Shown here one piece after another: positions 4,508 through 24,962 of a DNA stretch of 35,328 nt (positions are counted from its first letter, which is position 1; every line of letters starts with the position of its first letter). The notes beneath the pieces were generated by a model, which worked only from the letters and a program-made list of their open reading frames with translations, had not been told where the DNA came from and ran no database searches. The stretch covers positions 1-35,328 of the forward strand of contig VXMJ01000050.1 in assembly GCA_009841145.1 (NCBI GenBank), in the 5' to 3' direction. This DNA comes from Caldilineaceae bacterium SB0661_bin_34. GTDB lineage: Bacteria; Chloroflexota; Anaerolineae; Caldilineales; Caldilineaceae. A program made the translations under genes and the position numbers.

Positions 4508-4520
4508 TTGTGATTCACAA
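4508..4520. promoter_or_regulatory. Palindrome TTGTGA-T-TCACAA, likely TA operator
   Basis: A perfect 6-bp inverted repeat around one central T lies downstream of the -10 box and directly abuts the GGGAG ribosome-binding site (4521-4525) of the antitoxin. Antitoxins of this type commonly repress their own operon by binding such dyads. Binding here is inferred from position. Confidence 0.45.
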
Positions 4521-4533
4521 GGGAGCAAGCAAC

Positions 4534-4797
4534 ATGAACCAGCTCACGGTCCGGGGATTCGACGACGAACTGAGTTCTGCTGTGCGCCGTCTGGCCAAGA
4601 CCGAAGGAATTTCCCTGAACCAGGCAGCATTGAGACTGCTCAAAAAGGGTGCCGGTCTAACCGATAGCAAGGAGAACCCCCACGCGATAGGGTCCTCGCT
4701 GGACGACCTGTTCGGCGTGTGGAAACAGGATGAGGCGGAGAGTTTCGATGCTGCCCTCGAGATCTTTGAGACTGTGGACGAGTCAGCGTGGACATGA
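4534..4797 (+). CDS. vapB: VapB/FitA-like antitoxin (ribbon-helix-helix type)
   Basis: The 87-residue protein begins MNQLTVRGFDDELSSAVRRL, a short strand then helix typical of ribbon-helix-helix antitoxins (FitA/Arc-like), followed by EGISLNQAALRLLKKGAGL. The acidic C-terminal half (LFGVWKQDEAESFDAALEIF) should wrap the toxin. ATG 4534 is chosen because GGGAG stands 8 nt upstream; an upstream in-frame start lacks a site. The stop overlaps the toxin start as ATGA. A paralogue at 16261-16524 is about two-thirds identical by eye, gap-free along the full length. It presumably neutralises the PIN toxin and autorepresses through the palindrome at 4508-4520. Confidence 0.85.
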   Translation: MNQLTVRGFDDELSSAVRRLAKTEGISLNQAALRLLKKGAGLTDSKENPHAIGSSLDDLFGVWKQDEAESFDAALEIFETVDESAWT

Positions 4798-5192
4798 AGA
4801 TTCTGCTGGACTCCAATGCCTACTCCGCGTTTATGCGAGGCGCCCCCTCGGTACGAGGCCTGATACAAGCCGCCGAAGAGGTGCTGTTCTCGGCTGTCGT
4901 GGTAGGGGAACTACTTTACGGCTTTCGGCAGGGGGTGCACTTCGGTCGGAACCTTGCAGAACTCCGATCCTTCCTCGAACGTCCCTACGTGACCTTTGTA
5001 CCGGTCGGACCAGTAACTGCGGACCGCTATTCCCGAGTGATGACGGCGCTGAAAGCCAAGGGGCGGCCCATTCCCATCAACGACGTCTGGATTGCAGCCC
5101 ACGCGATGGAGACAGGTGCCGACCTTGTGTCGGCAGACAAGCACTTTGGATACGTTGATGGGATTGCCTGGGTGCGAATGGAAGCAAGTTGA
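4794..5192 (+). CDS. vapC: VapC-type PIN-domain toxin (ribonuclease)
   Basis: A 132-residue PIN-domain protein with the expected acidic residues: D6 (MKILLDSNAY), E39 (VVGELLYGF), D97 (PINDVWIAAHA) and D115 (VSADKHFGY). These coordinate Mg2+ for RNA cleavage; VapC toxins usually cut tRNA or rRNA. ATG 4794 overlaps the antitoxin stop, and an in-frame GTG lies two codons upstream (4788). Length is normal and no damage is seen, so this pair looks functional. Targets cannot be read from sequence. Confidence 0.9.
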   Translation: MKILLDSNAYSAFMRGAPSVRGLIQAAEEVLFSAVVVGELLYGFRQGVHFGRNLAELRSFLERPYVTFVPVGPVTADRYSRVMTALKAKGRPIPINDVWIAAHAMETGADLVSADKHFGYVDGIAWVRMEAS

Positions 5193-5285: not shown

Positions 5286-5484
5286 GCTCTCCGCGGCTGC
5301 CCAACCATGTACTGGGCAACTGCGCCGAGTGCTACGGCTGCCTAGTCGCCCACGAGTACATGGACGACACCGAGAGCAGCGGACATAACCAGCATGGACT
5401 GCATCCGTTCGCCAGTGCATCGCGCGTTGGCCTATGCTTAGGGACACCCGCCTCCCGCCCGCGTTCCCATACGGTTGCCCGCGC

Positions 5485-5766
5485 ATGTCCGCCCAGCGCC
5501 AGATCATCATGATCCTCTACCTGTCCAATTCCGCCCTGGACAGCGATGTCAGGGGCTGGACCATCTATGACGGGACCGGCCAAACCTACCCCACCACCGG
5601 AGACAGTGACACGCCGCCGTATCCCACGGGCCTGGCGGCGATGCAGGACGGCTGGCGCGTGATCCAGATGCCCCAGTTGATCCCCCCGGACAAGGATCTG
5701 GAATACACGACATCCTTCTTCAAGTTCGAGTATGTTTTCGAGAAGATGGTGGAGGTGGAGACATGA
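5485..5766 (+). CDS. Small conserved-looking protein of unknown function, coupled to PhyH-like gene
   Basis: A 93-residue protein from ATG 5485 (MSAQRQIIMILYLSNSALDS); a second ATG at 5509 (MILYLSNS) is possible, and neither has a strong Shine-Dalgarno. I do not recognise a family. It has a hydrophobic first strand, then a turn-rich centre (WTIYDGTGQTYPTTGDSDTP) and a C-terminal helix rich in aromatic and acidic residues (FFKFEYVFEKMVEVET). It has no signal peptide or cysteine cluster. The stop overlaps the start of the next gene by 4 bp (ATGA), so the two proteins are very probably made together; this could be an accessory subunit of the oxygenase. Coding is supported mainly by this coupling and by clean codon structure. 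Confidence 0.6.
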   Translation: MSAQRQIIMILYLSNSALDSDVRGWTIYDGTGQTYPTTGDSDTPPYPTGLAAMQDGWRVIQMPQLIPPDKDLEYTTSFFKFEYVFEKMVEVET

Positions 5767-6647
5767 CAACCGCGACCGTGAACCCCGAACTGTTGCTGAC
5801 TACAAACCAGATGGCGTCGTTTGCCGCACGCGGCTTCCTGCGCTTCGACAGTCTGGTGTCCGACGACCTCAACCGACGCGTCATGGACACCTTTGATGCC
5901 GGACCGGTTGCGCGTCCGGCCGCGGGTCTGCCGCTGTCCGAGGTCTATGCACCCGGATCGCCGTTGGACGACCTGATGCACCTGCCGGAAATCCAGGGCA
6001 TCGTCCAGAGCCTGGTCGGTCCCGACCCGCTGTTCGATCACCACGCCGTCCACATCCGCCAGCCCAACGAGGGCCGGGCCCAGGGCCTGCACGGAGACGC
6101 CATCATCGACACCCGGATGCACTTCGACATCCAGTTGATGTACTTCCCCCACGATACACCGCTGGAAATGGGCGGCACGCTCCTGTTGCCGGGCAGCCAG
6201 TTCCGCCGCATCAACGAATCGGACATCGCCCGCTACCAGAACTTCGTGGGCCAGATTCCCATGGTGTGCGAGGCGGGCACCGTGCTGGCCCTCCACCACG
6301 GGATTTGGCATTGCGGACGACGCAACCAGACGGATCGGGTCCGCTACATGTTCAAGATCCGGCTGAACCCCAAGGTACGCCAGCATCGGTTGTGGAATAC
6401 CGGTGATCTGGACGACCAGATGCAGGCCGATCCGGTGACCAACCTGGAAGCCAGGAACCGCACAGAGGAAAACATCTACTCCATCCTCTCCCGCCCCGAG
6501 CCGTGGTACGAGTTTCCGGTGGGCCGCCTGGAGATTGTGAATCGGGTCAAGTTCTGGCGGTTCCTGACCGGCAGCAACACCTTCGATCTCAGCTACTGGC
6601 TCACCCGGTTGGAGAACGAGCCCGAGAATCTGGCCCCGGCCGCCTGA
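5763..6647 (+). CDS. Phytanoyl-CoA dioxygenase (PhyH) family Fe(II)/2-oxoglutarate oxygenase
   Basis: The 294-residue product fits the PhyH family. Iron ligands are H110-G-D112 (GLHGDAIID) and H183 (HHGIWHCGRR). The 2-oxoglutarate-binding arginine is R192 or R194 (TDRVRYMFK). The middle of the fold reads GGTLLLPGSQFRR, as in family members. GGAGGTGGAG just upstream is a strong ribosome site. It should hydroxylate or otherwise oxidise an unknown small molecule in the cytoplasm. PhyH proteins act on many substrates besides phytanoyl-CoA (halogenated metabolites, ectoine, phosphonates). It is coupled to the upstream small gene and followed 102 bp later by a lipoprotein gene on the same strand. 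Confidence 0.88.
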   Translation: MTTATVNPELLLTTNQMASFAARGFLRFDSLVSDDLNRRVMDTFDAGPVARPAAGLPLSEVYAPGSPLDDLMHLPEIQGIVQSLVGPDPLFDHHAVHIRQPNEGRAQGLHGDAIIDTRMHFDIQLMYFPHDTPLEMGGTLLLPGSQFRRINESDIARYQNFVGQIPMVCEAGTVLALHHGIWHCGRRNQTDRVRYMFKIRLNPKVRQHRLWNTGDLDDQMQADPVTNLEARNRTEENIYSILSRPEPWYEFPVGRLEIVNRVKFWRFLTGSNTFDLSYWLTRLENEPENLAPAA

Positions 6648-6749
6648 ATTCGACGACCCGAGGAGCCGGAAATTCGGTTCGTCCAGATGTCCGTAGCAAC
6701 AGGCAACGTTGACGACGCTTCAACCAGACAAGACACGGAGGTCTCGAAG

Positions 6750-8471
6750 ATGAAAAGGTTAGGTTTGTCCTTGGCGGTATTCTTGACAATGGGAGCCTTC
6801 ATGGTGGCCTGTGACGCGGAATTTGCCGCTGCTCCCCCGGAGGTGGAGAAAACGGTTGAAGATGCCAGTGCGGCCGGAAGCGAAACGGGAGGCTGGGAAG
6901 TGTGGTTGTCCGATCAATCGGACAGTGTCGACATCAGTGCCGACAATCCGGCCGGAACCCATGGGAGTCGCATTGTCATTTACGAAAGCAGTGACATCCT
7001 CGCTGCTCCTCCGGGTTGGTATGCCGAAGATGATCCGAAGTACGGGCCAACTGTTATCGAAGCCGTCGATGTGTTCCCGTCCGCTTTCGAAGAACTCGGT
7101 GTGCATGTGCGACGCCTTCACGGCATGTTGCCGCAGCCCTCGAACCACCGGTACATGAACGCCAACTTCTTTGGTCCGGGCGCGGGACTGGTGGGCATCA
7201 TCGATGCCGAAGGACAATGCGAGCCGCTGGCCGACGGCCTCCGGAAATGCAAGCCGATTCAAGGCAGTCCGGAGGAAGCTGTGAAGCTGGGCAAAGCCCT
7301 GTTTCGCACCACCGGCCCGGAAGGCTCATCGCCTTCGAATCACATGTCCTTCTTCTCACCGGACGGCACCAAGTTGATCGTGGCCAATCTTGGGGCCAAG
7401 CTGCTGGAACGCATTGATTACGATGCGGAGTCCGACACCTTCACGTTCAACAAGGCCGCCACGCTCGATCTGGTGGGCGGCCGGGATCTGACCACCATGG
7501 AAGCTCAGGCTGATGCGACTCTGCCTGACGGCAGTGTGAGCGGCGAGTATACCAATTTTCAGCCGACAACCACACCAAGCGGCGCGCTCAAGGAAGGTCC
7601 AGGGCGGGCCAACAACGTCGTAGTGTGTCCCATAGTCAGCAGCAACAACCGGCACGCCTATGTCACGTTCGGCGGCGGCGGATTGTTCGTGGTCGATATT
7701 ACAACCGAGCCGATGTCCATCGTGGCGGAATACACCAACGACGTCATCAGCGTTGCCGGGTGTGGCGGTGTGGAAGGAAGAGGCTTCATGCACCTGAACG
7801 CGGGAGTCTCGGCAAGCCCCGCGGGTGCGGATGACTCAACGTTCATCATGTACCGTCTGCCGCTTGACTACCCTGATGGCGCAAACCCGCATACGACCCC
7901 GAACGTGCCTCCGGTGGTGACGTTCCACGAAGAGAAGGTACTGGAGATCACCGACGAAACCGAGTTGTCCAAACGCCGGGATTCGCACGGTGCTGTCGCT
8001 TCTGTGGATGGCCGGTATCTGTATCAGTTTGATCGGATCCAAAACAATGCGGAAGTGTTTGATTTGGACAAGGTGATCAACGATCCCGACGCTACGCTGG
8101 AAGAGCAGGCAGCGGCGCACGTAGGCACTTTGGATCTCACGGGAACAGGACATTGTGTCGGCGAGGGGGCGCCCTTCGTCAACATGCAGGACGAAGGATA
8201 TGAATTCAATGATGATCCCGCTCCCGACCTCGTGGATATTTCCCCCGATGGCCGAATGCTTGTTGTCTCCTTCAGGGGAGCAAACCCCATAACTGTGAAA
8301 CACGCCGGTTTGGGCAGTTGTCCCGGGTTTGGGATAGTGACTCTCTCAGACGACGGGGGATCAACCGGCACACTGACCCATGTGTTCCGGACATTCCTGC
8401 CGGACGCGACGGGTACCAGGAATCTAAGTGACATTCACGCGGCGATTGTTCGAATCAAGTCAAAGGATTGA
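6750..8471 (+). CDS. Predicted lipoprotein with beta-propeller-like repeats
   Basis: 573 residues from ATG 6750; GGAGG stands 9 nt upstream. Nearer-N-terminal in-frame codons are rejected because the signal peptide starts here: MKRLGLSLAVFLTMGAFMVAC, with a lipobox ending at Cys21. The mature protein starts with an acidic, low-complexity linker. It then shows repeated blade-like phrases: HMSFFSPDGTKLIVAN, HAYVTFGGGGLFVVDI, DSHGAVASVDGRYLYQFD and VDISPDGRMLVVSF. These SPDG-L-V patterns are those of YVTN/WD40-like propellers. It is probably anchored on the outside of a membrane. Function is unknown; propellers of this kind include lactonase-like and binding proteins. No frameshift is seen. Confidence 0.75.
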   Translation: MKRLGLSLAVFLTMGAFMVACDAEFAAAPPEVEKTVEDASAAGSETGGWEVWLSDQSDSVDISADNPAGTHGSRIVIYESSDILAAPPGWYAEDDPKYGPTVIEAVDVFPSAFEELGVHVRRLHGMLPQPSNHRYMNANFFGPGAGLVGIIDAEGQCEPLADGLRKCKPIQGSPEEAVKLGKALFRTTGPEGSSPSNHMSFFSPDGTKLIVANLGAKLLERIDYDAESDTFTFNKAATLDLVGGRDLTTMEAQADATLPDGSVSGEYTNFQPTTTPSGALKEGPGRANNVVVCPIVSSNNRHAYVTFGGGGLFVVDITTEPMSIVAEYTNDVISVAGCGGVEGRGFMHLNAGVSASPAGADDSTFIMYRLPLDYPDGANPHTTPNVPPVVTFHEEKVLEITDETELSKRRDSHGAVASVDGRYLYQFDRIQNNAEVFDLDKVINDPDATLEEQAAAHVGTLDLTGTGHCVGEGAPFVNMQDEGYEFNDDPAPDLVDISPDGRMLVVSFRGANPITVKHAGLGSCPGFGIVTLSDDGGSTGTLTHVFRTFLPDATGTRNLSDIHAAIVRIKSKD

Positions 8472-8957: not shown

Positions 8958-11531
8958 TCACAACCTTGGATCAACCGGCTCGCTCTCAAGCGCGAGTACC
9001 GCGAACGCGCACTCGTGTACCCGGTGAAGAGGCTCTCGCTCCACAAAACGCTGCAGGCCCTCCAGGCCCAACGCAAACTCCCGCAGGGCAAGTGACCGCT
9101 TCGTGGAGATGTTCCTTTTGCGCAGACGGTCCATGTTCTCCGACAGGGTGTACTCCGGTCCGTAGATGATGCGCAGGTATTCGGTACCCCGGCATTTCAT
9201 GGCAGGTTGCACCAAGCCGCGCGTGCCGTGCGCAACAAAGTCCATCGGCTTGGCGACGATGCCTTCCCCGCCCTTGCTCGTTAGTTCCTCCCACCAGGAT
9301 GTGGCCTCAACCTCATCCTCGGTATTCAGACGCACGACCTTGTGGTGGGTATCCCGGAACAACCCTGGATCGGCTGTGTGCAGGCGTCCGGCCACACCCA
9401 TATGCCACAGGTGGTCCTTCCCGACATGCACTTGGCCCTCGCTCGCCAACAGGTGGAACGGCGCCAATTGGATATCGGCGAGCGATGTTACCGGCCAGCA
9501 GTACCGGGCGTAGGCATCACTGTAGAGTTGAGTGAGGTTCAGCCGCTCCGCAACTCTGGCCAAGGCTTCACCAACGTCGATGCCGCGCTCCATCGTTTGC
9601 CGGAGGAGGGATTCGGCGGCCGTGAGACTGGTCCGCGCGGCCACGCCCACCGCGGCATATTGTTCGCGGAGCAGTTCCTGTGCCTTGAGGGACCACGGCA
9701 TAAGTTCACTGTCCAGTACGACCCAATCGGTCTCCAGTTCAGCCCAAAGACCGGCATCCGCAATGCCCTTTCGGATACGTTCCAGGAATTGCGCCTCAAG
9801 GATGCGGTCTTCAAAGAACCTCCGTCCGGTACGCGTGTAGCAGGTGCCGATGTCTTCACCTGCGATGCCAAAGCGCCGTTCGATGGCTGCGGCATCCTGC
9901 CCAACCACGACCACGGCCCGTGAACCCATGTGTTTCTCTTGGCAGACTACCTCGGACACGCCGTTGTTGCGGAAGTGGGCAAACACCTCGGTTGGATGTT
10001 CGAGTACACCAGGGAGCGCGGAGGTCTCACACGGGGAAATGGTCGGCGGGAGATACACCAGCCAGCGGGGGTCCAGGGCAAAACGGCTCACAACCTCAAG
10101 CGCCGCCGCTGCGTTTTCTTCCCTTACTGTGATATTGCCGCGGAGCCGAGTCGCAACGATGCGCTTACCAATTACGTCTCCAATGTCAAGGACGTTCGCC
10201 GCGCGGGTCCCGGCCGACACAACGGAAACCTCCGACTGGACATCCTCGGCCACCGGTCTCACCGGTTCACAATAGACCTGCGCCGCCGGAACCGACACAA
10301 GCTCCTTTTCGGGGTACCGAAGTGCGGTCAGCCTGCCACCAAAGACACAACCCGTATCAATGTTGATGGTGCGGTTGAGCCAAGCGGGCTCCACAACTGG
10401 GGTATGGCCGTAGACCACCGTCGCCGGCCCGCGATAGCCAACCGCCCAATCGGCGCGTACCGGGAGACCAAATTCGTCCGTTTCCCCGGTGGTCTCGCCA
10501 TAGAGACAGAAGTCCCGGACGCGGGCCGATGCACGGCCCTGGTATTCCGCCTTCAACCCCGCGTGGGCCACCACCAGATTCCCGTCATCGAGCACATAGT
10601 GGCTGATCAGTCCATCCAGGAACGCAGCCGCCCGTTGTTGAAACTCCGGGGACTCCATTTCCAGCTGAGCGAGCGTTTCCGCCAGTCCGTGGGAAATCTG
10701 CACCTTCCTGCCCTGAAGTTTGCGGACGAGCTTGGCTTCGTGATTGCCCGCCACGCAAAACGCGGTGCCGTCCGCGGTCATGGACATCACCAGATTGAGT
10801 ACCTTGGCAACAGCCGGACCCCGGTCCACGAGGTCGCCAACGAATACGGCCTTGCGCCCCTGCGGATGGGTGACGGAAAAACCGGGTTCCCCGATGTCGT
10901 CGGCGCGGGTCTCCAACCTGTATCCGAGACGTTTCAGGAGGATGGCAAGTTCATCGAAGCACCCGTGGACGTCACCGATGATGTCGAACGACCCGTGCTC
11001 GTTGCGCAAGTTGACCCACATGGGCATCCGCTCAACGAAAGCCTCTTCAACCTCTTCAGGAGAGTTCAACACAAACACATACCGGAAGCCCTCGCGCTTC
11101 AACCTGCGCAGCGATCGTTTGAGCTGTGCGGCCTGATTGCGCACCACATGGGGGCCAAACGAGCGCTCCGGACGATCCTTGTTGCGGGCTAGGCACAGGG
11201 CCTCGGGCATGTTCAGGACGATGGCCACCGACAGGCAGTCGTGCTCCCGGGCGAGTCCCACCAGAGGCTTGCGCGCCCGCGGCTGCACGCTGGTGGCGTC
11301 AATGACGGTGAGGCGGCCGGCCCGCAGGCGCGTGGCCGCGATGAAGTTGAGCAGGGCAAAGGCGTCGGGCGTTGCGGACTGGTCGGTGGCGTCATCGGCC
11401 ACCATAGCCCGGCAGGTGTCCGAGGACACTACTTCCGTGGGTTTGAAGTGGCGGGAGGCAAAGGTGGACTTCCCCGAGCCCGTGGGGCCAATGAGAACCA
11501 CCAGACACAATTCGGGAATGGCGATCTTCAT
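8958..11531 (-). CDS. pnkp: Polynucleotide kinase-phosphatase-ligase, bacterial RNA repair enzyme Pnkp
   Basis: The 857-residue three-domain enzyme heals and seals broken RNA with Hen1. The 5' kinase has a P-loop GPTGSGKST (15-23) plus D38 and R41. The 2',3'-phosphatase has GDVHG (D187, H189), GDLVDRG (D233, R237), GNHE (N263, H264), H323, GHTP (H376) and D392. The ligase/adenylyltransferase carries nucleophile K533 in EKHMGSRAV. These fall at the same numbers I recall for Clostridium thermocellum Pnkp (870 residues), so the start at 11531 is well supported. The longer open frame upstream is Hen1 sequence in another frame. The ATG overlaps the hen1 stop by ATGA. All catalytic residues checked are present. 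Confidence 0.96.
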   Translation of the reverse strand: MKIAIPELCLVVLIGPTGSGKSTFASRHFKPTEVVSSDTCRAMVADDATDQSATPDAFALLNFIAATRLRAGRLTVIDATSVQPRARKPLVGLAREHDCLSVAIVLNMPEALCLARNKDRPERSFGPHVVRNQAAQLKRSLRRLKREGFRYVFVLNSPEEVEEAFVERMPMWVNLRNEHGSFDIIGDVHGCFDELAILLKRLGYRLETRADDIGEPGFSVTHPQGRKAVFVGDLVDRGPAVAKVLNLVMSMTADGTAFCVAGNHEAKLVRKLQGRKVQISHGLAETLAQLEMESPEFQQRAAAFLDGLISHYVLDDGNLVVAHAGLKAEYQGRASARVRDFCLYGETTGETDEFGLPVRADWAVGYRGPATVVYGHTPVVEPAWLNRTINIDTGCVFGGRLTALRYPEKELVSVPAAQVYCEPVRPVAEDVQSEVSVVSAGTRAANVLDIGDVIGKRIVATRLRGNITVREENAAAALEVVSRFALDPRWLVYLPPTISPCETSALPGVLEHPTEVFAHFRNNGVSEVVCQEKHMGSRAVVVVGQDAAAIERRFGIAGEDIGTCYTRTGRRFFEDRILEAQFLERIRKGIADAGLWAELETDWVVLDSELMPWSLKAQELLREQYAAVGVAARTSLTAAESLLRQTMERGIDVGEALARVAERLNLTQLYSDAYARYCWPVTSLADIQLAPFHLLASEGQVHVGKDHLWHMGVAGRLHTADPGLFRDTHHKVVRLNTEDEVEATSWWEELTSKGGEGIVAKPMDFVAHGTRGLVQPAMKCRGTEYLRIIYGPEYTLSENMDRLRKRNISTKRSLALREFALGLEGLQRFVEREPLHRVHECAFAVLALESEPVDPRL

Positions 11532-12928
11532 TGCGTAAAGATCCCCATCTGGGTCGGTGCCCCATGGTCGGGGTGGACAGGACCGATGTCCTGGAAACGC
11601 ACATCGTACCGGCGGCGGTTGGCAACCCGCCCCGACCAGTCCCGAAATTGCTCCCGCGTCCACTCGAACCGATGGTCCCCATGCCTGAATGCTCCGGCGG
11701 GCAACCTGTCGAACACCGCGTTGTGTTCTGCGTTGGGCGTCGTGACGAGGACAGCCTTGGGTTGCGCGGACCCGAACACGGCCTCCTCGAAGGCGTCAAG
11801 CCGCGGAGCATCGATGTGTTCAATCACCTCCATGGCTATGGCGGCGTCGTGGCCTGAAAGGCGGCTGTCCCCATAGACAAGGGACCCGTGCAGTAGGTTG
11901 ACGCGCTGCTGCTGCCGAGGGGGCAGGTCATTGAGGCGCAAACGCCGACGCGCTGTTGCCAATGCCCGGAGCGACACGTCAATGCCGGTGATTGAACGTA
12001 CTGAAGATTCACCGAGGAGGGCATGAATCAGTCTTCCTTCGCCACAACCAAGGTCAAGCACCTTGACAGCCCCAAGGCTGCGGAGCGCGTCCAGCACTGC
12101 CTGAATACGCTGCTCACTTAATCGAAGCGGGGTTTCAAGCTGTTTCTCTGCCTGTTCGTGCCGTGTAGCGGCGGTACCCGGATCCGTTGGCCCGGCATCG
12201 AGCAGTTGGACCAGCGCCTGATCGACAAGCCCGCGCTGATGCTTCAGGTAGCGGCGCGAGATGAGATCCCGCAACGGATGGCCGTCCAACCAACCCTCAC
12301 CAAAGCGCAGCAACTTGGCCACCTCATCGTCGCCGACCCAGTAGTGCTTGTGGTCGTCCAGGACAGGCAACAGCACATACAGGTGGACAAGCAGGTCCCG
12401 GAGCCGGGTCGTCGCCGCGAGGCGCACGCTGAAATATGGGCTGGGGCCCCACTCGGGAAAACGCTCGTCCAGCGGGCGACCCTCAATCCCTACGGCATAG
12501 CCAAGGGGTTCGAACAGATTCCCAATGAGGTCCGCGCCTTCCCGCGAGGGCACGACAGGGATCCGGGCTTCCAGAGGAATGGCCTGTTCCGCCAAATCCG
12601 GCCGGTCCCTGCTGTTGCCCGCGAGGGCACTGCCAAACACCTTGGCAATCGCCACGCTCAAGTGCGATGACGCCACGTAGGGACGGTCGTTGACGTACTG
12701 CTCCAACCAGCCGCCGCCCTTGGGCGCGCCGGGCTTCAGGCGTACAAGCCCCACCGGGTCGATGTTCAGCAGAAGCGCCACCGTGCAGCGGTGGCTTTCC
12801 GCTTCGGGATAGAAGACATCGGCCCGCCCGAACGGGAGTTTGAACGACTGAAATCGGGCGGGGTTCTTATGTACCAGGAACCCAAGATCGGTTGCAGGCC
12901 GATGCGTGGTGGAGATGGTTAGCAGCAT
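11528..12928 (-). CDS. hen1: Hen1, RNA 3'-terminal ribose 2'-O-methyltransferase
   Basis: 466 residues. The bacterial Hen1 N-terminal domain opens MLLTISTTHRPATDLGFLVH, ending the opening block with VFYPEA. The C-terminal methyltransferase has the SAM loop LDLGCGEGR (291-299) and the metal-binding set E367-x-x-E370-H371 plus H419 (HRFEWTREQF). Hen1 methylates the 2'-OH at the break during Pnkp repair, so that a ribotoxin cannot cut there again. The N-terminal domain also stimulates Pnkp ligation in studied systems. The gene is intact and translationally coupled to pnkp. It lies 234 bp downstream of a small unknown gene and a PIN toxin-antitoxin pair on the same strand. Confidence 0.95.
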   Translation of the reverse strand: MLLTISTTHRPATDLGFLVHKNPARFQSFKLPFGRADVFYPEAESHRCTVALLLNIDPVGLVRLKPGAPKGGGWLEQYVNDRPYVASSHLSVAIAKVFGSALAGNSRDRPDLAEQAIPLEARIPVVPSREGADLIGNLFEPLGYAVGIEGRPLDERFPEWGPSPYFSVRLAATTRLRDLLVHLYVLLPVLDDHKHYWVGDDEVAKLLRFGEGWLDGHPLRDLISRRYLKHQRGLVDQALVQLLDAGPTDPGTAATRHEQAEKQLETPLRLSEQRIQAVLDALRSLGAVKVLDLGCGEGRLIHALLGESSVRSITGIDVSLRALATARRRLRLNDLPPRQQQRVNLLHGSLVYGDSRLSGHDAAIAMEVIEHIDAPRLDAFEEAVFGSAQPKAVLVTTPNAEHNAVFDRLPAGAFRHGDHRFEWTREQFRDWSGRVANRRRYDVRFQDIGPVHPDHGAPTQMGIFTQ

Positions 12929-20890: not shown

Positions 20891-22630
20891 CTACAGACCG
20901 GCCTTACTCAACTCATCCTGCAACGCGCGCAATCGATGGTGGCGTTCCCGGAACTCCGCCATGAAGTCGGTCCACGCCGGTTCCTGCGACATCTGTCGAT
21001 ACAGGTCCCGCATCGTGGTCAGGTAGGTACACGCCTGCTGGTATCGCTCCCGACCGCGAGCCTCCACCAACTTCTCCGCTTGCTCCCGGTAGAGCTCGGC
21101 GGCGGCCTGGGGACGTGTCTCCGCCGCGGCTTCGGCCACTCGCATCCACTGGCCATAGTAAAAACCCTGACTGGGTTGGCGTACCGATTTCAACGCCAAG
21201 TCTATTTCGCCTTCGTCCAGATGGATGTCCGTCAACAGGCCGTATTGCCGGGCGGCGGCCCACTCGGCCAGCAACTCCGGGCGTGTTGCCTGCCAGATAC
21301 CGAGACGCTGGGACAACTCCCGTACGTCCTGGTACGCGGCAAGGTCTTGGCGTTGTTCGAGCAACTGTTGGGCCAGGACCAGAGCCTCATCCAGTTCCCC
21401 GCGTTCTTCATGCTGCTCCTTGAGCCACGCTATCAAACCATCGATGCGGGTCGTTTCGATTCTCTCGGCCACCAACGGTTCCAACCTGCGGCCATGGCCA
21501 TGTGCGCCGAATAGCCCCGCCAAGGTCAGCAATTCCATGTCTCCGGCCCGACCGGCTTCGGCCAACGCCTCGTCCAACCGCCCCAGCGTCAGCAGGCGAT
21601 CCACCAAGTCGTCCAAGAGACCACTCTCACGGCAGATCTCCAGGAAGGCGTCGTCGTCCAGGTGGTCGGCCTCCAAGTCCAACAGGATACTGCCGTACGA
21701 TCGGCGTCGAAAGCTGTCGTACTCACCTGTGGCCGCCTGCATGGCGGTCCGCGCCCAACCGGCAACGACCCTCTTCTCGTCGTCGTCGGCATGTTCCAGT
21801 ATGAGTCCCTCCGCTTCATCCCCCATACCGTATCCTCCATAGTTCAGGTCCAAACGGAATATTTCAAAGAGGGCTTGCAGGGCGTTCTCTCTGGCCGCGG
21901 CGTTGCCGTCCTCCGCGGTCAGGCAGTTGCCAAGCCCTTGGATGCACCGGTTCACCACTTCGTGCATTTCCTCGCCGTCTTCGTCGTACACCATCTCAAA
22001 ATGCTCAAACATCTCCTGTGCCACTGCCAGGTACACGATGCCAGCGTTGGCGTAATCGGACTTGGCCAGGAAGTTGTCGCCGGAGCCCAATACCACGTTG
22101 ATGTCTCCGACACCGCCCCAGTCCCAGCCGTCAACACCGGATCGGATGGCGAGCTCTGCCTGCCGACGGTAACTTTCCGGGTCGACCAAGGGGCTGCTCT
22201 GGCCGTCTTCGGGCGGAGGCGCCTCCAGCAGGGCTTCGAAGGTAGGGTGGGCTTCCACCATTTGCTTGATGAGGGCAATCAGTTCCGACTGGCTGCGTCG
22301 CTCCAAGTTCGGGTCCAGTTCTTCCACCTCCCGGAAGGAATCAGGATCGTCCAACCAGGTCAGTAGCAAGGCCGCGACGTGCTTGCAACGTCCGCCGCCA
22401 CCCACCGGGCAGGAACAATCAGCCTCCTTGATCCCTTCGGTGCCGCAGGCAACCCACAAGCGGTAGGGTTGGGGCCTGGAGCCTTGACACCAGGCCTTGA
22501 GGGTGTTGTCTTGAAGGCGCGGCTCGAGGATGTCCCCACGCTTGAAGTAACTGCGGCCGCGTTGGAAGCTTCGTGAGCCCACCCAATCGGATATGGCCCC
22601 TTCGTTCACTGCAGGGAAGGGATTGCTCAT
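20891..22630 (-). CDS. SWIM zinc-finger protein, tandem copy 1
   Basis: 579 residues from ATG 22630 (GAGGAG 11 nt upstream; an in-frame GTG at 22639 is possible). The N-terminus carries a SWIM zinc finger CxCx7CxH: C72, C74, C82, H84 in ADCSCPVGGGGRCKHVAALL. The remaining ~480 residues are acidic and helical with repeat-like segments (LLTLGRLDEALAEAGRAGDM, ELLAEWAAARQYG), suggesting a TPR/HEAT-like alpha-solenoid scaffold. It ends RALQDELSKAGL. SWIM domains bind DNA or proteins. No enzyme domain is visible. The next copy upstream (23223-24962) matches along the whole length, about four-fifths identical by eye. Confidence 0.85.
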   Translation of the reverse strand: MSNPFPAVNEGAISDWVGSRSFQRGRSYFKRGDILEPRLQDNTLKAWCQGSRPQPYRLWVACGTEGIKEADCSCPVGGGGRCKHVAALLLTWLDDPDSFREVEELDPNLERRSQSELIALIKQMVEAHPTFEALLEAPPPEDGQSSPLVDPESYRRQAELAIRSGVDGWDWGGVGDINVVLGSGDNFLAKSDYANAGIVYLAVAQEMFEHFEMVYDEDGEEMHEVVNRCIQGLGNCLTAEDGNAAARENALQALFEIFRLDLNYGGYGMGDEAEGLILEHADDDEKRVVAGWARTAMQAATGEYDSFRRRSYGSILLDLEADHLDDDAFLEICRESGLLDDLVDRLLTLGRLDEALAEAGRAGDMELLTLAGLFGAHGHGRRLEPLVAERIETTRIDGLIAWLKEQHEERGELDEALVLAQQLLEQRQDLAAYQDVRELSQRLGIWQATRPELLAEWAAARQYGLLTDIHLDEGEIDLALKSVRQPSQGFYYGQWMRVAEAAAETRPQAAAELYREQAEKLVEARGRERYQQACTYLTTMRDLYRQMSQEPAWTDFMAEFRERHHRLRALQDELSKAGL

Positions 22631-22959
22631 GACTTCCACCGCTCCTCGCGCTGGCTTGTTCCCTGGGTTGCCCGATGCAGGACACTCACACTGATCGCGT
22701 CAGCCGGTCCCGAACTTTATCGTTCGCGCACGGTCTTCCGACACGCAGCCAACAAACAAGAGGCGCCCTGAGGCTCTCGCAACTGAACCTACCATCCCTC
22801 TCGGCGAATCTGTTCCGCGCGTCGCCAGCGCAACCAAACGGGCTGTACCATGGGCCCGACCCCGACTGCCAAGGGGCATCGCATCCTTCATCAACCATTT
22901 TCGCATCATTCGAAAGCGAACCCAGGGCGATGGCCGAGACCGCACTGTCTCATTCTCGT

Positions 22960-23222: not shown

Positions 23223-24962
23223 CTACAGGCCAGCTTTGCTTAACTCATCCTGCAACGCGCGCAATCGACGGTGGCGCTCCCGCAACTCGGCTATGAAGTC
23301 GGTCCACGTCGATTCCTGTGACATCTGTCGGTAAAGGTCCCGCACCTTGGTCAGATAGATACATGCCTCCTGGTATCTTTTCCGACCGCGAGCCTCAATC
23401 CACTTCTCCGCCTGTTCCTGGTAGATTTCAACCGCGGCTTGGGGCCGTGTCTCCGCAGCGGCCTGAGCTACTCGAATCGACCGGTCTCCGACATAGGGAG
23501 AAACCCGCTCCAGTTGCCGCACCGATTTCAACGCCAGATCAATTTCGCCTTCGTTCAAGTAAACATCGGTCAACACGCCGTATTGCCGGGCGGCGGCCCA
23601 CTCGGCCAGCAACTCCGAACGTGTTACCTGCCAGACGCCAAGACGCTGGGACAACTCCCGTACATCCTGGTACCTGACAAGGCCGGGGCGTTGCTCAAGC
23701 AACTGTTTGGCCAGGACCAGAGCCTCGGCCAGTTCCCCGCGTTCTTCGTGCTGGTCCTTGAGCCACACCACCAAACCATCGATGCGGGTCGTTTCGATTT
23801 GTTTGGCCACCAACGGTTCCAACCTGCGGCCGTAGCCATGTGCGCCGAATATCCCCGCCAGGGTCAGCAAGTCGAAGTCTTGGGCACGATCAGCTTCGTC
23901 CAACGCCTCGTCCAACCGCTCCAGCGTCAGCAGTCGGTCCACCAAATCATCCAGGCGGCCACTGTCACGGCAAATCTCCAGAAAGGCATCATCGTCCAGG
24001 TGGTCGTCCTCCAAGGCCAGCAGGAAACCGCCGTATCTTTGGCGTCGATAGCTGTCGTACCGGCCTGTAGCTGCCAACATGGCAGTCCGCGCCCAATCGG
24101 CAATGACCCTCTTCTCGTCGTCGGTGGCATGATTCAGTATCAGGTCCTCCGCGGCTTCCCCCGCATACCCTCCATAGTCCGAGTCCGAACGGTATATGGC
24201 AAACAGGGCTTGCAGGGCTGTCTCTCTGGCCGCAGTATCGCCATCCCCGTCGGCCAGGCAGGTCCCAAGCCCTTGAACGCATCGGTTCACTACTTCGTAC
24301 AAGTACTCGCCGGTGTATTCGTCGAGCACCATCTCAAAATGCTCAAACACCTCCTGAGCCACCGCCTGGTACACGATGCCGGCGTTGGCGTAATCGGACT
24401 TGGCCAGGAAGTTGTCGCCGGAACCCAATACAATGTTGATGTCCCCGGTGCCACCCCAATCGTCAAAACTGGTTCGGATGGCAAGTTCTGCCTGCCGACG
24501 GTAACTTTCCGAGTCGACCAAGGGACTGCTCCGGCCGTCTTCGGGCGGAACAGCCTCCAGCAGGGACTCCAAGGTGGGGTGAACTTCCACCATTTGCTTG
24601 ACGAGGGCAATCAGTTCCGACTTGCTGTACCGCTCCAGGTTCGTGTCCAGTTCTTCCACCGCGCGGAAGGAATCGGGTTGGTCCGACCAGGTAAGCAGCA
24701 ACGCCGCGACATGCTTGCAACGTCCGCCGCCACCCACCGGGCAGGAACAATCGGCCTCCTTGATGCCTTCGGTACCACAAACAACCCACAAGTGGTAGGG
24801 CTGGGGTCTGGAGCCTTGACACCAGGCCTTGAGAGTGTTGCCTTGAAGACGCGGGTCGAGGATGGCCCCACTCTTGAAGTAACTGCGACCGCGTTGGAAG
24901 CTTCGTGAGCCTACCCAATCGGATATGGCCCCTTCGCTCACTGTGGGGAAGGGATCGCGCAT
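23223..24962 (-). CDS. SWIM zinc-finger protein, tandem copy 2
   Basis: 579 residues from ATG 24962, with AGGA 4 nt upstream. It has the same plan as copy 1, with intact zinc ligands C72, C74, C82, H84. The helical body is conserved (LLTLERLDEALDEADRAQDF, VRELSQRLGVWQVTRSELLA, ALKSVRQLERVSPYVGDRSI) and the C-terminus is identical to copy 1 over its last residues (RALQDELSKAGL). Differences cluster around residues 205-290 and 500-515 (copy-specific insertions such as EYTGEYLYEV). No damage is visible. It is separated from copy 1 by repeat A and from copy 3 by an IS110 relic. It may form hetero-oligomers with copy 1. Confidence 0.85.
   Translation of the reverse strand: MRDPFPTVSEGAISDWVGSRSFQRGRSYFKSGAILDPRLQGNTLKAWCQGSRPQPYHLWVVCGTEGIKEADCSCPVGGGGRCKHVAALLLTWSDQPDSFRAVEELDTNLERYSKSELIALVKQMVEVHPTLESLLEAVPPEDGRSSPLVDSESYRRQAELAIRTSFDDWGGTGDINIVLGSGDNFLAKSDYANAGIVYQAVAQEVFEHFEMVLDEYTGEYLYEVVNRCVQGLGTCLADGDGDTAARETALQALFAIYRSDSDYGGYAGEAAEDLILNHATDDEKRVIADWARTAMLAATGRYDSYRRQRYGGFLLALEDDHLDDDAFLEICRDSGRLDDLVDRLLTLERLDEALDEADRAQDFDLLTLAGIFGAHGYGRRLEPLVAKQIETTRIDGLVVWLKDQHEERGELAEALVLAKQLLEQRPGLVRYQDVRELSQRLGVWQVTRSELLAEWAAARQYGVLTDVYLNEGEIDLALKSVRQLERVSPYVGDRSIRVAQAAAETRPQAAVEIYQEQAEKWIEARGRKRYQEACIYLTKVRDLYRQMSQESTWTDFIAELRERHRRLRALQDELSKAGL

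Follow-up and report, generated by a model that had tools for sequence, protein, structure and literature searches.

Described iron enzymes with partner proteins

Two kinds of non-heme iron enzyme appear, by analogy, to be the nearest precedents for the gene pair described here, which lies in a 35,328-nucleotide stretch of contig VXMJ01000050.1 of Caldilineaceae bacterium SB0661_bin_34 (Chloroflexota; GenBank assembly GCA_009841145.1). We refer to this whole stretch as the window. The pair consists of a gene for a 93-residue small protein (SP) and, overlapping its 3' end, a gene for a PhyH-type Fe(II)/2-oxoglutarate oxygenase. The first precedent is the TlxIJ heterodimer (PDB 7VBQ), in which the catalytic PhyH-fold subunit performs far better with its non-catalytic partner, itself similar to the catalytic subunit and to the homodimer AndA (PMC12141560). 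TlxIJ and the SP-PhyH pair are alike in joining a PhyH-fold enzyme to a partner that is, or in our case may be, non-catalytic, and TlxI is among the fold matches of the window PhyH. SP, however, is unlike PhyH: it has no PhyH match, only 93 residues, and another predicted topology. The second precedent is the multinuclear non-heme iron oxidative (MNIO, DUF692) enzymes with partner proteins, such as MbnB-MbnC and TglH-TglI, whose partner is proposed to guide the precursor peptide (PMC12141560). Here the likeness is that a gene for a non-heme iron enzyme goes together with one for a non-catalytic partner, putatively so for SP, whereas the MNIO enzymes belong to another family and have peptide substrates, and the window enzyme matches PhyH only.

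PHYH, PHYHD1, EctD, SptF, SnoK, and ThoJ share fold, catalytic residues, and the PF05721 match with the window PhyH, whose clade differs from the known PhyHs by the signature N37/Q107/M136/T139/W182/K198. Among the leading matches (8 to 20 papers per search) of searches of open-access PMC main text, we found no description of a small partner from an unrelated family for any PhyH enzyme. A first-pass annotation of the window, made from its letters and open reading frames (ORFs), had suggested that the pair might be undescribed, and among these open-access papers this is borne out. We rate SP-PhyH as a probable oxygenase of heteromeric type with a partner from an undescribed family.

SP genes are paired with one group of PhyH genes

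From the comparative evidence below we infer contact between the two proteins and a likely type of substrate, and we regard it as probable that SP is the non-catalytic subunit of a two-part PhyH oxygenase. SP and PhyH genes are paired across the loci that we compared. In a first set of 140 (L001-L030 and L061-L170; not all independent, as L061 repeats L001 and some contigs recur), a PhyH gene lies directly 3' of SP on the same strand at 139, and the sole miss (L079) is at a contig edge. After the addition of 94 further SP places, the most distant relatives included and overlapping loci counted separately, a scripted count over L001-L324 placed PhyH 3' of SP for 256 of 259 SP ORFs, which answers the first-pass proposal to look for the small protein beside PhyH genes elsewhere. 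Besides L079, the count missed L302 and L311, whose PhyH frames open before or inside SP and continue beyond it (a strong overlap). Nine genomes of other phyla yielded 34 PhyH-linked places of 37 (28/30, L377, and 5/6), and five additional loci (L372-L376) were linked without exception.

The pairing was also examined from the side of the enzyme. A search of 100 genomes, counting that of the window and with 24 candidates scored in each of the richest, gave 25 matches to the window PhyH at E≤1e-20, and every one adjoins SP: 24 by coordinates and the last, in genome G014, by C-terminal SP residues at a contig edge. The first-pass annotation had named a small gene missing beside orthologous PhyH genes as evidence against its proposal, and none of these 25 lacks it. 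At 30 loci of the other PhyHs of the window's genome (which has 64 PhyH matches), SP was never present. Since SP adjoins 25 of 25 in the one case and 0 of 30 in the other, it is restricted to one PhyH group and does not accompany PhyH at large.

The two window ORFs share an ATGA at 5763-5766, as had been claimed, and measured to the nearest in-frame PhyH start, overlaps of 4 bases (71/257 pairs), 1 base (51/257), and 8 bases (31/257) occur among the loci. The claim that this overlap makes SP an obligate partner went too far: the overlap alone is insufficient, and it is the comparative linkage that supports SP as a dedicated partner of the enzyme. Two unusual arrangements add to this. The two genes of Streptomyces sp. 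NBC_00316 (proteins WP_267009352.1 and WP_267009353.1) stand the other way round, PhyH (52% identical to the window protein) preceding SP (64%), and the ATGA overlap is retained; because the order is swapped yet the overlap kept, inheritance of a single ancestral arrangement is hard to reconcile with this locus. In the planctomycete locus L339 (543-2455; from the same metagenome-derived genome as planctomycete locus L120), one 360-aa ORF joins a PhyH domain (53.3 bits, residues 20-216) to SP (residues 278-356), and its stop shares an ATGA with the start of a second, separate PhyH gene. No fusion occurs in L001-L030 or L061-L170. Fusions of two domains often mark proteins that work together, and the L339 fusion makes the subunit reading slightly more likely.

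A single-sequence search of 100 genomes found SP homologues in 28, and a profile search covering 400 genomes from the phylum found them in 33; both figures count the window's own genome. In the phylum to which G489, the genome of planctomycete locus L116, belongs, 6 genomes out of 199 have them, G489 and G490 included. A contig scan confirmed 291 SP relatives, of which 80 were kept. As labeled in the records of the metagenome-assembled genomes (MAGs), where single labels are possibly wrong, the relatives belong to Chloroflexota (Caldilineaceae, Anaerolineae), Poribacteria, Latescibacterota, Planctomycetota, Gemmatimonadota, Armatimonadota groups, Zixiibacteriota, and one Trueperaceae MAG; SP is also present on two plasmids of Streptomyces, on one of them as a decayed copy. 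Several SP-PhyH pairs per genome are common, with up to 7 SP matches in the 100-genome search and up to 8 in other phyla. Viral carriers were sought as well, and none of 49 pattern matches is a relative.

The linked PhyHs cluster in a tree and diverge with their SPs

After thinning of the 258 linked and 105 unlinked PhyH sequences, 85 rows entered a quick maximum-likelihood tree. A single group of 43 rows holds 35 of the 36 SP-linked PhyHs, with a Shimodaira-Hasegawa-like approximate likelihood ratio test (SH-aLRT) value of 89, which is under the starred level; the sole linked row outside, L021_1749, belongs to a locus with two PhyHs behind SP, of which it is the first. Leaving aside that row and the 8 unlinked rows inside the group, the residues N37, Q107, Y127, M136, T139, W182, and K198 are present in 86-100% of 35 linked rows as against 0-17% of 41 unlinked rows. 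Q107, W182, and K198 are near the catalytic residues H110, D112, H183, and R194 in sequence.

A mirror-tree comparison covered 152 pairs, of which 120 are in 33 genomes with at least 3 pairs. Over these 120, the distances among SPs and among their linked PhyHs correlate at r = 0.82, and 1000 shuffles of partners within genomes gave a mean r of 0.14 (standard deviation 0.03, maximum 0.25). The pairs seem to duplicate and move as units.

The enzyme and its active site

The first-pass identification of an Fe(II)/2-oxoglutarate enzyme of the PhyH family is confirmed by its PF05721 score (Table 1), its HxD...H and R residues, and its fold match. All 43 of 43 SP-linked PhyHs match PF05721 at E≤0.001, and H110, D112, H183, and R194 are invariant in all 43 aligned. 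From general knowledge of the family we take H110, D112, and H183 to be the Fe(II) ligands and R194 the arginine that binds 2-oxoglutarate. Because the catalytic residues are invariant, the SP-linked PhyHs should be catalytically active, perhaps with a pocket of their own. The AlphaFold2 (AF2) model of the window PhyH (mean predicted local distance difference test score, pLDDT, 90.6) has a double-stranded beta-helix fold, and Foldseek matched it to SptF at E 8e-11 with probability 1.00; further fold matches were PHYHD1, HygX, ThoJ, EctD, and TlxI. A profile of the SP-linked PhyHs matched SptF, SnoK, and PHYH better than PHYHD1, and the sole PDB sequence match of the window PhyH at E≤0.01 was 6zyk (PDB title: ThoJ).

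The 64 PhyH-family matches of the window's genome (G000) are spread over 4.34 Mb. A large PhyH expansion is likewise reported for Poribacteria (PMC3909097).

SP is a coding gene of a family without a name

A longer in-frame ORF would give SP 110 residues from position 5434. We prefer the 93-residue start because an in-frame stop lies 3 codons 5' of the equivalent ATG in two of three congeneric genomes (G002 and G003) and because the N-terminus M-S/A-x-x-R-Q is common among SP relatives. No clear Shine-Dalgarno sequence precedes the ATG in the window's genus; at SP loci of other genera, AAAGGA or AGGAG stands ahead of it. Within the genus the differences between SP genes are mostly at the third codon position (2, 1, and 12 at positions 1, 2, and 3 between G000 and G003), and a copy in another genus is 70% identical in residues, from which we conclude that SP is coding. 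In 62 aligned rows, P45, A52, and W57 are invariant.

The small protein had been described as unknown. The window SP has no Pfam or NCBIfam match at E≤1, and 62 diverse members searched against Pfam returned only four stray one-member matches (E 0.048-0.083). An AF2 model (mean pLDDT 87.7) gives a beta-beta-alpha-beta-beta topology, with which Foldseek found nothing at E<1 (best 1.4), and all matches in a PDB profile search had E≥0.5. KCTD1, the best VIA-align match, was rejected as a relative, as its Z of 4.7 is too low for kinship. This lack of an outstanding PDB match does not show that the predicted fold is new. The SP profile may share a helix-GW-strand pattern with DUF4177 (PF13783, function unknown), which hhalign matched weakly (probability 35, score 23.75 over 40 columns); the score was reached by 0 of 200 column shuffles, and a reversed-alignment control gave a probability of 0.2. 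The two differ in that 0 of 62 SP members match PF13783 at E≤0.1, and a profile of 13 DUF4177 sequences had no PDB match at E≤0.05. A distant kinship between SP and DUF4177 over the helix and last strands is at most weakly indicated.

A variant form of SP was seen at L011-L030 and L230-L279 (mostly genus g9), with a helical-looking N-terminal extension of about 30 residues. Two tandem PhyHs are frequent after these extended SPs, and at some of these loci a glyoxalase-family gene lies between SP and PhyH.

Proposed function and alternatives

We propose that PhyH is the catalytic subunit, with Fe(II) held by H110/D112/H183 and 2-oxoglutarate by R194, and that SP, as a small beta-sheet domain, would serve it as a dedicated non-catalytic subunit. 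The overlapping genes would let SP be made in step with PhyH. SP would most likely dock on the PhyH core beside the active-site mouth, where it would stabilize the enzyme or shape substrate access; the reaction would probably be hydroxylation or O-demethylation of sugar- or cyclitol-like small molecules in catabolism. The sequences show the conserved pairing, the co-divergence, the clade signature, the intact catalytic residues, and one natural fusion; that the two proteins touch, what SP does, and which kind of substrate is used are what we infer, and the last draws on gene neighborhoods. We profiled 78 of 172 same-strand neighbors, kept after thinning, and 25 of the 94 matched families were listed. 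Amidohydro_2, MR_MLE_N, SBP_bac_1, and NHL are the commonest Pfam families (3 each of 78), followed at 2 each by fucosidase, aldo-keto reductase, HpcH/HpaI, xylose-isomerase-like, and other families. The Streptomyces pair is near Gfo/Idh/MocA, TIM-barrel, and inositol catabolism (iolB/C/D) genes and sugar transporter genes, and at many poribacterial loci the pair is in a syntenic region with IGPD, GlgC-like, and lectin-like genes. We saw no universal third gene beside the pair, and neighbors vary across loci. As raw counts, the neighbors point to the catabolism of sugar- or cyclitol-like molecules, in which a hydroxylation or O-demethylation would fit naturally. The first-pass idea of a small-molecule oxidation module, which draws on these mixed catabolic neighbors, is plausible as a hypothesis.

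Several observations count against a two-part enzyme. Oxygenases of PhyH fold commonly work without a small partner. Of the PhyH tree rows, 8 in the linked group scored as unlinked (6 extra PhyHs of SP loci, the G014 edge case, and one long branch). The correlated divergence of SP and PhyH is no proof of contact, as tight linkage alone has the same effect, and the AF2 models are of SP and PhyH as single chains. Of the 306 SP ORFs at 383 loci, L339 alone is fused. SP stands unlinked at L335 (1486-1866), with no PhyH within the 3.2 kb examined; at L344 (469-1047), where an HpcH/HpaI aldolase follows and 468 bases of contig remain beyond the SP stop; and at a third place, L383, cut by a contig end. 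A plasmid of Streptomyces sp. NBC_01001 (L371:8001-8185) has a decayed, unannotated SP in two frames, near which tblastn found no PhyH in 16 kb. The neighbor family figures are raw counts, and the iolB/C/D, Gfo/Idh/MocA, and TIM-barrel genes near the NBC_00316 pair are on the strand opposite to it.

Some of these points would suit a protein of the same pathway, for instance a ligand-binding, carrier, or regulatory protein that is co-expressed with PhyH and is not its subunit. Gene overlap and co-inheritance require no contact, and of two loci with SP but no adjacent PhyH, one has SP beside a catabolic aldolase. We consider this a serious alternative that is nonetheless unlikely, given that PhyH is a nearly constant partner while the other neighbors change, that the SP-linked PhyHs have a residue signature of their own, that the overlap persists where the two genes have changed places, and that PhyH domain and SP are joined in a single ORF at one locus.

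It is less likely still, and in our view quite improbable, that SP is the substrate and that PhyH hydroxylates one of its residues, as peptide-modifying oxygenases do. ThoJ, the only PDB sequence match, acts on a ribosomal peptide, and SP has invariant residues (P45, A52, and W57), which would fit this idea. However, 6zyk is one of many matching PhyH folds, and SP, a predicted folded domain with conservation along most of its sequence, has neither a leader nor a variable core. Nor does a maturation set for ribosomally synthesized and post-translationally modified peptides (RiPPs) appear among the 25 listed of 94 neighbor families.

An alternative that concerns the enzyme itself is that PhyH is a 2'-O-methyl nucleoside demethylase like PHYHD1 or FJS, serving the turnover of Hen1-methylated RNA (FJS was considered by its description; the sequence comparison covered PHYHD1). 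Such demethylation is described for PHYHD1 and bacterial relatives, one of them poribacterial (PMC12709175). PHYHD1 is among the fold matches of the window PhyH, and a Pnkp-Hen1 cassette is located at 8958-12928 of the window. In congeneric genomes G001 and G003 a strong Hen1 match shares a contig with the pair. We regard this function as very unlikely, since the cassette is on the strand opposite to the pair, PHYHD1 is weaker than SptF, SnoK, and PHYH against the SP-linked profile, and Hen1 and the pair are on separate contigs in genome G024 (the G002 contig that carries the pair is too short to tell). Accidental linkage, in favor of which nothing speaks beyond the two exceptions L335 and L344, is practically negligible, as a same-strand PhyH start within 1.5 kb would be expected at about 1/90 positions (by arithmetic from 64 PhyH matches in 4.34 Mb) versus the 256/259 seen.

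Other genes of the window

Table 1. Coordinates of the gene pair and of the lipoprotein gene that follows it in the window
Feature	Position	Strand	Basis or remark
SP, 93-aa small protein	5485..5766	+	ORF; predicted beta-beta-alpha-beta-beta fold; family without a name
ATGA overlap, SP stop/PhyH start	5763..5766	+	Sequence
PhyH-type Fe(II)/2-oxoglutarate oxygenase, 294 aa	5763..6647	+	Pfam PF05721, 31.8 bits (cut-off 22)
Beta-propeller lipoprotein, judged outside the module	6687..8471	+	Likely start 6750; signal MKRLGLSLAVFLTMGAFMVAC

The first-pass annotation had named the downstream propeller lipoprotein as a possible binder of a related extracellular substrate. Its ORF looks like that of a beta-propeller lipoprotein and matches Pfam Lactonase at 24.4 bits (cut-off 21.7), and its lipobox, assigned by eye, is presumed. 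The gene lies 3' of the pair in three of the four genomes of the genus (G000-G002); it was not found in G003, which has the SP-PhyH pair, and a relative occurs in G018, where the SP search gave no match. Membership in the module is thus not borne out, and the lipoprotein, which is not conserved with the pair, is a genus-level neighbor.

On the other side of the pair, at 4510-5192 (+), a VapBC/FitAB-like gene pair lies 5' of SP, with a PIN domain at 60.6 bits and a FitA-like ribbon-helix-helix protein marginally below the cut-off. VapC also precedes the SP-PhyH pair in G002 and G003 and was not found at the G001 locus. The cassette at 8958-12928 (-), next to the SP-PhyH pair, is a bacterial Pnkp-Hen1 RNA repair cassette, scoring 1375.7 bits for TIGR04075 and 666.9 bits for TIGR04074; Hen1 is a 2'-O-methylating enzyme, and some members of the PhyH family strip such methyl groups from nucleosides. 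Farther along, 20891-22639 and 23223-24962 (-) encode two like-sized proteins with a SWIM zinc finger near each N-terminus, perhaps the result of a tandem duplication.

Implications for the PhyH family

A bolder and tentative extension, to which we give somewhat less than even credence, is that the SP-PhyH pairs are a new class of 2-oxoglutarate oxygenase with two subunits, where SP would be an essential, co-evolving specificity subunit and each pair would serve a different catabolic substrate. The idea of one pair per substrate follows from the many duplications of the pair, with up to 8 SP matches per genome. The compact pair on a completely sequenced Streptomyces plasmid makes the idea directly testable. 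SP is a sequence marker for one PhyH clade. If the proposed two-part enzyme is real, SP-linked PhyHs may appear inactive or unstable when expressed alone, which could partly explain why these oxygenases stay unassigned.

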